Positions 9,992 through 36,491 of a stretch of DNA of 36,491 nucleotides are shown here, piece after piece. Under the pieces are notes generated by a model. That model searched no databases and was not told where the DNA came from. It saw only the letters and a program-made list of their open reading frames with translations. The stretch comes from Candidatus Saccharimonadota bacterium. GTDB taxonomy: Bacteria > Patescibacteriota > Saccharimonadia > Saccharimonadales > Saccharimonadaceae. The stretch is from contig JAFRJZ010000012.1 in assembly GCA_017431945.1 (NCBI GenBank), positions 1-36,491 of the forward strand. Reading direction: 5' to 3'. The position numbers were made by a program, and so were the translations under genes. Each line of letters opens with the position of its first letter. The first letter of the stretch is position 1.

Positions 9992-12439
9992 TTACCAGCT
10001 ACCTCCACCACCCCCAGTGCTGTTCATAATATCATCTGTATAGGCATAGGTCATACCTTTCGCTTTCGTAGTATCTAGCGACCACTCACTACAACCTGGC
10101 CAATAACTCGTATAGCCATTACTGCACGATGCCTCGCACACCACCACATTACTACTCGTCACACCCATCACCACACCAGTGTGGTTATAGGTATCCGTGC
10201 TAAACACCGCATACGGCCTCGGTTCATTACCAGTTTTTAACCCCTTAGTTGCACCTAGGTGCTTTACCATCAAATTACCATTTACGGTATTTGCCCACTT
10301 CGGCCCAATTGATGTGTATTTATTCAAAAACCACTGCGAAAACGCCACACAGTTGTTTAGTGTACCACCCCCACAACCCGCATCCAACACATAGGCACTC
10401 TTAAACATATAGCTACCCGTCTTTTTCTTTGACGCCTCTTGGCGATAAGTTTCCATCCACGCCTTTGCTTCTGCCAAGGTCATCCCGCCTTCTTTTAGCC
10501 CAGTATCACTGTTAGTACTCTGGCATCTATCACAATTCTCCGCATTACTGCTCACCGCGGTACTCTCCGCCCCATCAGACGAAGAATTACCGCCACCAGA
10601 CACCGTATCTCCACCTACGCTTGATTTACCTTTTTCAATCACTACGCCGCTAGTTGAATTCTTCGCATTTTTTGCTCGCAAAATTATCATCACCGAGTCT
10701 AAACTATCTTCTATTCCTAAATACATCCCACCCTTCCAGTTGTGGTGTGCATCCACCCGGTATTTCTTGCCATTTTGATCTTCCACATATATCCATACAT
10801 GTCCACTTTTTAACACCACATCACCTGGTTTCAAGGCTGACTTTGAAGTCGTTCTAATCACATTCCATTTCTTGCTATCACCCTTGCTCGCCAAAGCAAA
10901 CTGTTCATCTAGACCCCTTGGAAAACTTTTATCCACACCTGAATAACGCACTACCGTCGCCGCCCCTACATCACACGAAGCTCCCGCATTAGTCTGTCTC
11001 GCCCAATCACGCTTCGGAAATACCTTATCAATAGCTATTTTAAATGCCTCGGTCGGTTTACCGCCATGATACAACTTCTTACTATCTTTTGTTCCTAATG
11101 GCCACGCCAAACACACCGCCGTACTATTTACGTCCATCGTATTTTGCTGGCAACTACTCGTCACACATTTTGGCGTCCCTTGCGTACGATAAATATGATA
11201 TTCCGCTCCGCTCTCAGCAAAGAAATCCGTATATCCCGCCCATCGTTCATCATTTGACGCCGACAGGATATAACCTTTACCGTCTCTCTGTCCATATATC
11301 TCAATATGTTTTCTCACGCCACCAACAATTTTTACCCTAATATCACCTGGCTGATAAGTCGCTTCCTTTGTCGCGTCCCCTTCCACTCGTGTGTAAATCT
11401 TTGGTGTTGCTATCATATAATCCTCTTGCGTTGCCACATTTCCCCAAGGAATATTATCATCCACTCCTGCCGCTCTCACTACTACCGCCACAAACCGATC
11501 ACAACTCTCTCCGTTTTTGTAACAATCGCCAGGGCATTTCACCGATTTTTGTGCCTTTAAGTACGCCTCGGTTGGCCCCTTTGCGCTCTCCTCCCTTGTC
11601 TGATCCGCCAGCTCCCACGCCTTATCATTAATATTAGAAGTCACGGTACTATCCGCCACTCCCACTGTCGACGAGCTTTCCCCATTACTGGTAAAAGTTT
11701 TACTACCATATTTATCATACATCTCCTGTGCCGTCGCTCGTCTTAGTGGTCTTTGTCCCGCTATATTAGCCGGAATCTCCACATGTTCCAAAAAGAAATC
11801 CGCGGCACTAGTCACCGTCCTCTGATTATAAATACCATGATAACTCGGCACCGTATCTAATTCTCTTTTCAAATATTGTAATTCCAATTGATAAAGCCGG
11901 TTCGCCGTTTTATGACCATATTTGTCAATAAAATCATCGCCCGACATGCTCCCAAGCGTCTCGTCCTCAAAATATTTTATCATTTCTGCATCTTGTGATT
12001 TCACATAGTTCAAAAGTTTTACTCGTCGCCCAAACGACCATTGAACCAACCCCATCCCCATTTGCGTACCACTATTCCAAATGTCGCCACTTTTGCCTCC
12101 TTCGCGTCGCACCGGTCCATAATTACCATCTTCATATTTAATATTTCCCATCACCCCCGCCGCCTGCTCCGCCGTCAAAAAACTCCTCAACCCTGACCAC
12201 ACTTTTTCTTCTGCCGTATTACCCGATATCGTAACTTCTCCGCTCAACGAATCACTACCGCCCGCATCCGAACAGGGCTCATAAAACACGATTTGATTTT
12301 GTGAAAAAATTGTCTCTTCTTCCTTGGTTAGCGGACTACTATTCTCTGCATACGCTTCACTACTTATAGTCAATCCCGTAGCAAAAACTAACGCCAATAC
12401 CAACCCAAAAATCCTATGTTTGCGTATCAGACTAAACAT
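9992..12439 (-). CDS. Secreted multi-domain peptidoglycan hydrolase (lysozyme-like plus three Cys/His peptidase-like domains)
   Basis: This 815-residue protein starts with a signal peptide (residues 1-31, SSEAYA). Residues ~75-240 match the phage-tail lysozyme family: LTAEQAAGVMGNIKYEDGNYG, MGMGLVQWSFGRR, then QLEYL-type helices and AADFFLEHVEIP. Three NlpC/P60- or CHAP-like segments follow, each pairing a Cys with a downstream His: SCDRFV (~311) with KHIEIYG (~378); SCDVGAATVV (~489) with GHVWIYV (~546); NNCVAFSQWF (~695) with NHTGVVMGV (~755). Linkers are Ser/Gly/Thr-rich and the end is GGGGGSW. It would cut both glycan and peptide bonds of peptidoglycan outside the cell, for self-remodelling or attack on a host wall. 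Whether all three Cys domains are active is unclear; the first two are the more degenerate. A terminator lies upstream at 12467-12499. Confidence 0.8.
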   Translation of the reverse strand: MFSLIRKHRIFGLVLALVFATGLTISSEAYAENSSPLTKEEETIFSQNQIVFYEPCSDAGGSDSLSGEVTISGNTAEEKVWSGLRSFLTAEQAAGVMGNIKYEDGNYGPVRREGGKSGDIWNSGTQMGMGLVQWSFGRRVKLLNYVKSQDAEMIKYFEDETLGSMSGDDFIDKYGHKTANRLYQLELQYLKRELDTVPSYHGIYNQRTVTSAADFFLEHVEIPANIAGQRPLRRATAQEMYDKYGSKTFTSNGESSSTVGVADSTVTSNINDKAWELADQTREESAKGPTEAYLKAQKSVKCPGDCYKNGESCDRFVAVVVRAAGVDDNIPWGNVATQEDYMIATPKIYTRVEGDATKEATYQPGDIRVKIVGGVRKHIEIYGQRDGKGYILSASNDERWAGYTDFFAESGAEYHIYRTQGTPKCVTSSCQQNTMDVNSTAVCLAWPLGTKDSKKLYHGGKPTEAFKIAIDKVFPKRDWARQTNAGASCDVGAATVVRYSGVDKSFPRGLDEQFALASKGDSKKWNVIRTTSKSALKPGDVVLKSGHVWIYVEDQNGKKYRVDAHHNWKGGMYLGIEDSLDSVMIILRAKNAKNSTSGVVIEKGKSSVGGDTVSGGGNSSSDGAESTAVSSNAENCDRCQSTNSDTGLKEGGMTLAEAKAWMETYRQEASKKKTGSYMFKSAYVLDAGCGGGTLNNCVAFSQWFLNKYTSIGPKWANTVNGNLMVKHLGATKGLKTGNEPRPYAVFSTDTYNHTGVVMGVTSSNVVVCEASCSNGYTSYWPGCSEWSLDTTKAKGMTYAYTDDIMNSTGGGGGSW

Positions 12440-27327: not shown

Positions 27328-27735
27328 ATGGAAGATCCCGTTTCTGTACAAAAAATTTGTTCAGCCAAATACCCTGATATTCGTTTCAAGCTCGGCTCTC
27401 GTTTCTCCTATAAACATCCCAACACCGTCACCCTCGGGCCTCCTGAGCCTCACTATTCCCTGCTCGCCCTCCACGAACTCGGTCATGCTTTGTGCAAACA
27501 TCAAAATTTTAGTACTCACATTGAGCGTTTAAAAATCGAACGCGAAGCGTGGGATAAAGCCCGCGAACTCGCCGCCGAATTTAATATCAAATTCGACAAT
27601 GATTTCGCCGAGTCGCAACTTGATACTTACCGCGATTGGTTGCATGCTAAATCAAAGTGCAAAAAATGCGGCCTCACTCGTTATCAAACCAGTGACGGCC
27701 GCTATCATTGCCCCCATTGTGATTTAGTGGTTTAG
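27328..27735 (+). CDS. Small HELGH zinc metallopeptidase with C-terminal zinc ribbon
   Basis: This 135-residue protein has a zincin motif H49-E-L-G-H53 in LLALHELGHALCKH, a following Glu-rich helix (IERLKIEREAWDKARELA) likely to give the third ligand, and a C-terminal CKKC...CPHC zinc ribbon. The helix order resembles the ImmA/IrrE-type (M78) or SprT-like small peptidases. The substrate is unknown. A TAAAAT ends 7 nt before the ATG, so it is probably leaderless. Its 3' end overlaps the convergent KGG gene by 4 bp. No phage or toxin gene is adjacent, so an ImmA role is not indicated by context. Confidence 0.75.
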   Translation: MEDPVSVQKICSAKYPDIRFKLGSRFSYKHPNTVTLGPPEPHYSLLALHELGHALCKHQNFSTHIERLKIEREAWDKARELAAEFNIKFDNDFAESQLDTYRDWLHAKSKCKKCGLTRYQTSDGRYHCPHCDLVV

Positions 27736-27932
27736 GCCTTCTTCGCAGGGCCACGCTTTGAGATTCTACCACCCTTAGCACCAGCGATACGTGCCAATGC
27801 TGGGTTAGCGGCAAAACCACCAGTGTGACCAGCTTGACCACCCTTACGACCAATACGAGCGTAAAATTCTTTACCGTATTTGCTCTTATTGGTAGCAGCA
27901 GCCTTCAAGCCACCAGCTTTAGTTCCAGCCAT
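27732..27932 (-). CDS. KGG-repeat (stress-induced type) small protein
   Basis: This 66-residue basic, Gly/Ala-rich protein has KAGGLKAAATNKSKYGKEFY, IGRKGGQAGHTGGFA and IAGAKGGRISKRG: the KGG motif repeats of the stress-induced GsiB/Con-10-like family. Such proteins are small, hydrophilic and often abundant in stress or stationary phase. GAAAGAGAG precedes the ATG, and a TATAAT lies about 40 nt further up. The basic composition would also fit nucleic-acid binding. No transmembrane segment is seen. Confidence 0.8.
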   Translation of the reverse strand: MAGTKAGGLKAAATNKSKYGKEFYARIGRKGGQAGHTGGFAANPALARIAGAKGGRISKRGPAKKA

Positions 27933-28091: not shown

Positions 28092-28112
28092 TTATCCACA
28101 AAATGTGGAAAA
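28092..28112. promoter_or_regulatory. Inverted pair of DnaA-box-like sites
   Basis: TTATCCACA (28092-28100) on the plus strand and TTTTCCACA on the minus strand (28104-28112) face each other with 3 bp between. Both match known DnaA box forms. They end 6 bp before the -35 of the small-RNA promoter. No dnaA or dnaN is in the window, so an origin is not claimed. Confidence 0.5.
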
Positions 28113-28118
28113 AAGGTC

Positions 28119-28147
28119 TTGACATTATTCATTTTGTGATATATACT
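28119..28147 (+). promoter_or_regulatory. Near-consensus promoter of the small RNA
   Basis: TTGACA (28119-28124) and TATACT (28142-28147) are 17 bp apart. Confidence 0.85.
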
Positions 28148-28153
28148 GAGAGT

Positions 28154-28308
28154 GTATTGAACAAGTCTTACTGCGAGGTTGTTCAATCGGTTAATCTACA
28201 CGATTAACTCATTGGTGCGGAGTAGAGGTGCTCATCCCCTCTCTCCCAACTGCACCAATTAATGACCTTAAACATACGAAAAGCCACCCGGGATCCAGGT
28301 GGCTTTTT
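28154..28308 (+). ncRNA. Structured small RNA of about 155 nt, family unknown
   Basis: Between the promoter at 28119-28147 and a terminator at 28283-28308 lie four successive hairpins: ATTGAACAA/TTGTTCAAT (28156-28187, perfect 9 bp), GTTAATC/GATTAAC (28190-28208), ATTGGTGC/GCACCAAT (28211-28259, with an inner GGAG.AGAGG / CCTCT.TCC stem), and the terminator GCCACC/GGTGGC plus T5. No start codon with a ribosome site and no useful frame is present. It does not have the single long bulged helix of 6S RNA nor tRNA-like ends. Loop 3 (GTGCTCATC) and loop 1 are the likely contact regions. I do not recognise a family. Confidence 0.75.
28283..28308 (+). terminator. Terminator of the small RNA
   Basis: The stem GCCACC/GGTGGC with a CGGGATCCA loop is followed by five T. 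Confidence 0.85.
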
Positions 28309-28368: not shown

Positions 28369-28446
28369 GGGGATATAGCTCAGCTCTGTCCGAGGCGCTT
28401 GTCGCCGAGTAAATCATGACAGAGCGCGGCGCGAACCTAGTATTAT
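28369..28446 (+). repeat. Duplicated tRNA-Ile 5' end with palindromic insert (E4)
   Basis: The first 17 nt of tRNA-Ile (GGGGATATAGCTCAGCT) occur at 28369-28385 and again, in the intact tRNA, at 28447-28463. Between them is a GC-rich palindromic segment: GCTCTGTC/GACAGAGC (8 bp) around GGCG-CTTGT-CGCC. It then continues as GCGCGGCGCGAAC. It looks like an element inserted into the tRNA that left a 17-bp duplication and so a functional copy. Short blocks (CGAGG.CG.TT, GCGCGAAC) resemble the cores in ileS. Confidence 0.65.
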
Positions 28447-28523
28447 GGGGATATAGCTCAGCTGGTTAGAGCGCGTCACTGATAATGACGAGGTCTGTGG
28501 TTCAAGTCCACATATCCCCACCA
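28447..28523 (+). tRNA. tRNA-Ile (GAT)
   Basis: This 77-nt gene has acceptor arms GGGGATA/TATCCCC, D-arm GCTC..GAGC, anticodon stem CGTCA/TGACG with loop CTGATAA (anticodon GAT), TTCAAGT T-loop, and an encoded CCA. It lies directly after the palindromic element E4. tRNA-Ala(TGC) lies 716 bp downstream; in many bacteria this pair sits in the 16S-23S spacer, which is not the case here. Confidence 0.97.

Positions 28524-36335: not shown

Positions 36336-36491
<156 letters not shown>

Follow-up and report, generated by a model that had tools for sequence, protein, structure and literature searches.

What kind of RNA is encoded just upstream of the tRNA-Ile gene in the 36,491-nucleotide stretch of Saccharibacteria DNA analysed here (the window)? 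The initial annotation described a near-consensus promoter, three stem-loops and a terminator that together delimit an RNA without a coding frame, and all of these elements are borne out. The promoter agrees with the consensus at 11 of 12 positions, and its -35 element, spacer and -10 element are kept in relatives. The 155 nucleotides at 28154-28308, henceforth RNA1, have a predicted fold of -56.6 kcal/mol compared with -34.0 +/- 3.6 kcal/mol for 200 shuffled sequences (z -6.2; none of the 200 as good), and this fold puts the stem-loops and the terminator where they had been proposed. No open reading frame of 100 amino acids overlaps this stretch, and the frames of 20-34 amino acids found there are not kept in relatives when the alignments are read by eye. 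RNA1 is present as a single copy in its own 728-kb genome. Because it has a promoter and a terminator of its own and no conserved reading frame (judged by eye), RNA1 forms a standalone unit of the kind expected for a trans-encoded small RNA, whose start and end we infer to be 28154 and 28308. The features of the locus are as follows.

27732-27932, minus strand: KGG gene (PF10685), divergent from RNA1 and its syntenic anchor, with an RNA upstream in 28 of 30 fully read KGG loci
28092-28100 and 28104-28112, no strand assigned: DnaA-box-like pair TTATCCACA and TGTGGAAAA, seen in the sequence 5' of the promoter
28119-28147, plus strand: RNA1 promoter TTGACA-17-TATACT, recognized by consensus match and conservation
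28154-28308, plus strand: small RNA RNA1, recognized by its fold (z -6.2) and a family-model match (G000:C25:28140-28196, E 2.6e-5)
28156-28187, plus strand: hairpin 1, the conserved core, with a covarying stem
28170-28178, plus strand: invariant loop ACTGCGAGG of hairpin 1, the exact complement of CCTCGCAGT, the terminator loop of RNA2 (see below) in the same genome
28189-28209, plus strand: hairpin 2, a lineage-specific insertion recognized by its fold, in its own genome and G088 only among 174
28211-28259, plus strand: hairpin 3, a lineage-specific insertion with a C/U-rich loop, in the same two genomes only among 174
28262-28269, plus strand: single-stranded tail motif ATGACCTT, which reads ATGTATGACCT in most aligned loci of the genus
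28279-28307, plus strand: intrinsic terminator, a stem followed by a T run

The proposal that RNA1 belongs to no recognized family, and in particular is not 6S, tmRNA, SRP or RNase P RNA, also stands, given that neither RNA1 nor the corresponding RNAs of five relatives reach the gathering threshold of any Rfam 15 family, these four included. The best weak match is RcsR1 (RF02552), which is likewise built from stem-loops followed by a terminator and matches in part. Unlike a true member, RNA1 scores 20.5 bits (E 0.07) where the threshold is 60, and the matched hairpin is largely the lineage-specific one.

RNA1 is instead a member of an uncatalogued RNA family of Saccharibacteria, as judged from sequence conservation within the genus of Candidatus Nanosyncoccus alces. 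Our set for this genus comprises 174 genomes, and its named relatives, Cand. Nanosyncoccus alces among them, are Candidatus Saccharibacteria from gut and rumen. A plain DNA search with RNA1 gave almost no matches in these relatives. The same place, 5' of and divergent from the small KGG gene, holds a shorter RNA in the 28 loci noted above, consisting of a promoter, a hairpin with the invariant loop ACUGCGAGG, the single strand AUGUAUGACCU and a terminator. Model R1 detects RNA1 in 70 of 99 genus genomes and model R2 in 135 of 174 (96 of 110 among those of good quality), and in the loci read its orientation is mostly divergent from the KGG gene. The core conserved across the family comprises hairpin 1, a short unpaired strand and the terminator, and the invariant loop across the genus reads ACUGCGAG(G/A). 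Hairpins 2 and 3 are inserted between hairpin 1 and the tail in 2 of the 174 genomes, and comparison of these two by eye shows a single compensatory change in hairpin 3, T-A to C-G. The four-hairpin architecture originally ascribed to RNA1 thus holds for its own species and one close relative, but not for the family, which has one loop-conserved hairpin and a terminator. Similarly, the tRNA-Ile gene does lie downstream (28447-28523), but it is an incidental neighbour, and the KGG gene is the stable one.

Compensatory change in the stems had been named as one of the observations on which the small-RNA reading would stand or fall, and stem 1 provides it. Among 27 sequences, 6 of 10 pairs are changed on both sides and 99.2% of cells pair, with a covariation score that none of 500 shuffles reaches. 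A more diverse set of 55 sequences has two-sided changes at 8 of 10 pairs and 92.4% pairing, which falls to 48-50% when the partners are shifted by one column. Alignment A3 leaves out one wrong row (L024) and six loci that the script did not match.

The family extends beyond the genus. In other genera of the family, 27 of 44 loci have a hairpin of at least six pairs with a UGCGAG loop upstream of KGG on the divergent strand, compared with 0 of 44 on the opposite strand, and this hairpin is often the terminator itself. A letter-order control, in which 120 arrangements of UGCGAG were scored, gave an average of 0.48 of 44 loci with a next best of 3. L130, whose hairpin has fewer than six contiguous pairs, is scored as a miss among the 44, and five further loci carry a UGCGAG hairpin by eye (G235, G205, G193, G300 and G132). 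The second KGG copies of G358 and G177 are without one (by eye), and in other families of the order it is found at 0 of 24 loci. RNA1 of other genera has further recurring single strands, GGCACCUGUUUGGA and UCCACCAC (by eye), and in some cases, such as L147, one RNA bears two copies of the conserved loop. Two genus genomes depart from the usual arrangement in a manner that we regard as suggestive. The KGG leader of G012 (L028:1427) itself contains the RNA1-like sequences ACUGCGAG and AAACUGCGAGG, and in G020 (L103:980) an RNA1 hairpin bearing ACUGCGAG directly precedes the Shine-Dalgarno sequence of a gene that by eye resembles MazG. Separately, L353 (G221) has a second UGCGAG hairpin antisense to the KGG leader beside the one in the RNA1 terminator, and CCGAACA is repeated between the KGG and RNA1 promoters at many loci of the genus.

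Could such a hairpin simply be a leader or attenuator of the downstream gene, or an ordinary terminator without further function? The G020 hairpin abutting a Shine-Dalgarno sequence and the presence of the loop within the terminator in many genera would fit, but we consider this exceedingly improbable. Downstream genes differ among genomes (by eye), and we rejected a riboswitch or other cis leader because the loci read share no conserved downstream gene. The loop is also not a generic terminator loop, given that few CTGCGAG hairpins exist in 690 kb and that its complement is found in just two terminator-like hairpins of its own genome (detailed below). Finally, both the stem and the loop of RNA1 are under selection.

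Three other identities were discarded. A PyrR-binding hairpin is rejected because the RNA1 alignments differ on the 5' side from the full consensus, which includes ARUC there, and because Rfam gives no match. The idea that RNA1 is antisense to 5S rRNA came from other families of the order, in which KGG follows a 5S gene containing CCUCGCAG; six 5S sequences of the genus are without this word (the own-genome version reads CCCAGUAGCG). Pairing with the KGG mRNA was also set aside, with -24.3 kcal/mol for matched loci versus -24.0 kcal/mol for mismatched ones. Two matches in other families of the order were dismissed as well: that in G128 looks by eye like a T-box leader before thrS, and that in G164 overlaps or adjoins reading frames. 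A KGG gene immediately after 5S is seen in several other families of the order.

A partner for the invariant loop emerged from weak extra R2 matches in nine genomes. These are hairpins whose loop, on the strand with the T run, reads the complement CCUCGCAG. In seven of the nine genomes, as in the own genome, the hairpin belongs to a single conserved locus situated near tmRNA. The RNA at this locus, RNA2, is a second uncatalogued small RNA by its sequence conservation, often lies beside tmRNA and matches no Rfam family. The own-genome copy is outside the window, on a different contig from RNA1 (G000:C14, L161:10869-10983, minus strand). The promoter, which in the own genome reads TTGACA-17-TATTAT, is followed by an AU-rich hairpin; then come UAGCCAAAAUAACUCCACACUCUAC, a near-invariant single strand that contains ACUCC, and the terminator, whose loop is UUUUCCUCGCAGUUA.

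To search for RNA2 we used model R3, built from its 5' part only. R3 detects RNA2 in 33 of 37 chosen genus genomes and in 39 of 40 genomes from other genera of the family (27 of 28 genera). The terminator loop contains CUCGCA in all 33 of the former and 38 of the latter 39, which makes 71 of the 72 genomes that gave a main R3 match; the sole exception is G177 with the loop CUCCGCAG. Because the terminator was excluded from the model, RNA2 provides evidence that is independent of the loop. The terminator stem covaries: of its 11 pairs, 8 show two-sided changes among the 15 sequences, out of the 49 terminators of alignment A5, that have one loop geometry. The remaining two R2 extra matches (G375 and G396) and a similar one in G034 are terminator-like hairpins with the same loop as RNA2, those of G375 (by eye) and G034 being located after tsf.

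The two loops match closely. In the own genome they could form a duplex of 9 bp at -16.6 kcal/mol. In the 65 genomes for which both loops are available, the uninterrupted Watson-Crick complement averages 7.95 (5 in 1 genome, 6 in 5, 7 in 21, 8 in 18, 9 in 9 and 10 in 11) and reaches at least 7 in 59; these counts include G090, whose RNA1 loop was picked inside the KGG gene, and with its correct value of 8 the number reaching 7 bp would be 60. Shuffled RNA1 loops average 3.4, with 7 reached in 0.5% of draws. Among 181 terminator-like loops of the own genome, two are complementary to the RNA1 loop over at least 8 nt (shuffle mean 0.010; 0 of 300 shuffles reach 2), namely that of RNA2 and one beside a gene that by eye resembles a small heat-shock protein gene.

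Exchanging partners among genomes, in permutations that ignore genome relatedness, lowers the complement to 7.54 +/- 0.09, and none of 20,000 permutations attains the observed value. RNA1 loops of other genera were chosen by their UGCGAG content. This choice partly fixes the six core positions, and the complementarity test rests on RNA2 and the flanking positions. Within the other genera these flanking positions exceed permutation (P 5e-5, relatedness ignored). Position 3x11 of the register, beside the core, is occupied by AU in 26 genomes, UG in 16, CG in 5, UA in 4 and GU in 2, and is thus paired in 53 of 65. At the core edge, C-G is replaced by U-A in G311 (AUUGCGAGA/UCUCGCAAU) and by G-U in G292 (GUGCGAGAG/CUCUCGCAU). 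Conserved, complementary and accessible hairpin loops, as expected of a kissing interaction, are therefore present (59 of 65 genomes; RNA2 loop in 71 of 72), and the loops covary across genera but not within the own genus, where we found invariance only. Several genomes deviate. The loops of G086 (RNA1 CUACGAGG) and G353 (CUGCGAU) are uncompensated, and the complement is only 6 bp in G227, G201 and G305. In addition, G267 has a clear RNA1 and no R3 match, and the RNA2 loop is kept in 5 of 7 tested genus genomes without a detected RNA1 (G033, G026, G012, G114 and G237), which suggests either that RNA2 does other work too or that RNA1 genes were missed.

From these patterns we consider it highly likely that RNA1 and RNA2 kiss. 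The invariant RNA1 loop might alternatively be a protein-binding site, such as a CsrB-like decoy or a PyrR-like hexaloop (CNGNGA, a consensus that the loop resembles), with its complementarity to RNA2 incidental. An invariant loop on a covarying stem, sometimes present twice per RNA, is what such a site might look like. However, this explanation would leave to coincidence both the exact complementarity of conserved loops in two unlinked genes and the compensatory changes in them, and Rfam gives no match to a protein-binding RNA; we regard it as very unlikely.

In the mechanism that we propose, RNA1 would be a regulatory small RNA encoded in trans, and the loop of its 5' hairpin (ACUGCGAGG) would kiss that of the RNA2 terminator (CCUCGCAGU) in a duplex of about 9 bp. 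RNA2, through a single strand whose ACUCC could cover Shine-Dalgarno sequences, would be the likelier regulator of mRNAs, and RNA1 would be its sponge. If the two do pair, RNA1 probably acts as the antagonist, because RNA2 is more widespread and has the invariant ACUCC strand. Taken as a whole, a kissing-loop pair in which RNA1 antagonizes RNA2 is the reading that we favour, with some reserve. The same pairing evidence applies equally to reversed or joint roles, in which RNA2 regulates RNA1 or a stable heterodimer is the active species. RNA1 has conserved tails of its own that could be seeds (within the genus AUGUAUGACCU, in other genera GGCACCUGUUUGGA and UCCACCAC), and the exceptional G020 hairpin and the AAACUGCGAGG in the G012 KGG leader replace RNA1, which would fit an action of RNA2 on RNA1-like sites. 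However, RNA2 is the commoner RNA and its long invariant strand looks like an effector, so we judge such roles unlikely.

Candidate mRNA targets were sought in translation-initiation regions. The complement GGAGTTAT of the RNA2 strand appears there 7 times versus 0.47 expected in the own genome and 5 times versus 0.36 in G033, although Shine-Dalgarno-like words are enriched in such regions anyway. The RNA1 loop gave one eight-base match in own-genome initiation regions, to the stem-side edge GGTTGTTC, and none to the invariant loop. A different picture, in which RNA1 is an independent trans-acting small RNA that represses mRNAs through its tail AUGACCUU while the loop serves a protein, draws on the tail complement AAGGTCAT, found in 6 own-genome initiation regions versus 1.0 expected (P 7e-4), several of them preceding proteins that by eye look secreted or membrane-bound. 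This excess shrinks to 1 versus 0.34 in a second RNA1-bearing genome, and the word appears 3 times versus 0.86 in G033, in which RNA1 is undetected. Furthermore, the tail is limited to part of the genus, and a protein partner would leave the complementary RNA2 loop unexplained. We therefore hold this alternative to be decidedly improbable.

The two genes also share an upstream element. The DnaA-box-like word TGTGGAAAA/TTTTCCACA precedes RNA1 at 43 of 58 loci and RNA2 at 32 of 45, compared with a chance expectation of 0.004 per 105 nt from its own-genome frequency, so that common control of RNA1 and RNA2 is plausible. One can speculate, with little confidence, that these parts constitute a two-RNA circuit throughout this family of Saccharibacteria. 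Near-consensus promoters and DnaA-box-like elements would let replication or growth state set the ratio of RNA1 to RNA2 and, through the kissing loop, the translation of mRNAs whose Shine-Dalgarno sequence pairs with the ACUCC of RNA2.

In RNAI-RNAII, CopA-CopT, OxyS-fhlA and similar kissing-loop antisense pairs, the interaction starts from a loop-loop contact of about 7-10 bp, and the proposed RNA1-RNA2 contact would be of this size. Those systems are overlapping antisense genes or small RNA-mRNA pairs, whereas RNA1 and RNA2 would be two trans-encoded small RNAs in loop-loop contact, of which they would provide RNA biology with a conserved case. As co-conserved RNAs with complementary loops, they would also give a starting point for studying how these reduced, host-dependent bacteria control gene expression after transcription. 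Functional parallels are a bacterial trans-acting small RNA with a cis-encoded antagonist (PMC8687705) and an RNA sponge of Caulobacter (PMC12559287), in which a regulatory RNA is likewise reported to pair with another small RNA that it would control. Unlike those examples, RNA1 and RNA2 are unlinked, would meet loop to loop and are conserved across one Saccharibacteria family, with the antagonism being our proposal. Our searches of the open-licence literature turned up no description of a small regulatory RNA from Saccharibacteria or Patescibacteria, which is weak evidence of absence, and the available part of a 2024 perspective mentions riboswitches as tools only (PMC11665869).

Several minor observations concern the surroundings of these genes. 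mRNA 3' terminator-like hairpins with the RNA2 loop CCUCGCAGUU are present at L094:780 and L368:990, both after tsf, and at L370:920. Two near-identical elements of about 90 bases flank the own-genome RNA2 (L161, about 10700-10820 and 11080-11180), and their internal inverted repeats (ATTTGAAAC..GTTTCAAGTCC) give them a MITE-like appearance. The tmRNA genes in L362, L363, L366 and L161 were missed by ARAGORN and score 86-98 bits with Rfam RF00023. Downstream of RNA1, the first 20 or so bases of tRNA-Ile (ggggatatagctcagct) occur twice, at 28369-28390 and 28446-28467 of the window; the upstream copy runs on into unrelated, GC-rich sequence and resembles a truncated tRNA duplicate. The rRNA genes look split, with the end of 16S at 36336-36491 of the window and 5S on another contig (G000:C12:334-441), and RNase P RNA and tmRNA are located on a third contig (L161:17133-17471 and 11220-11581, respectively).
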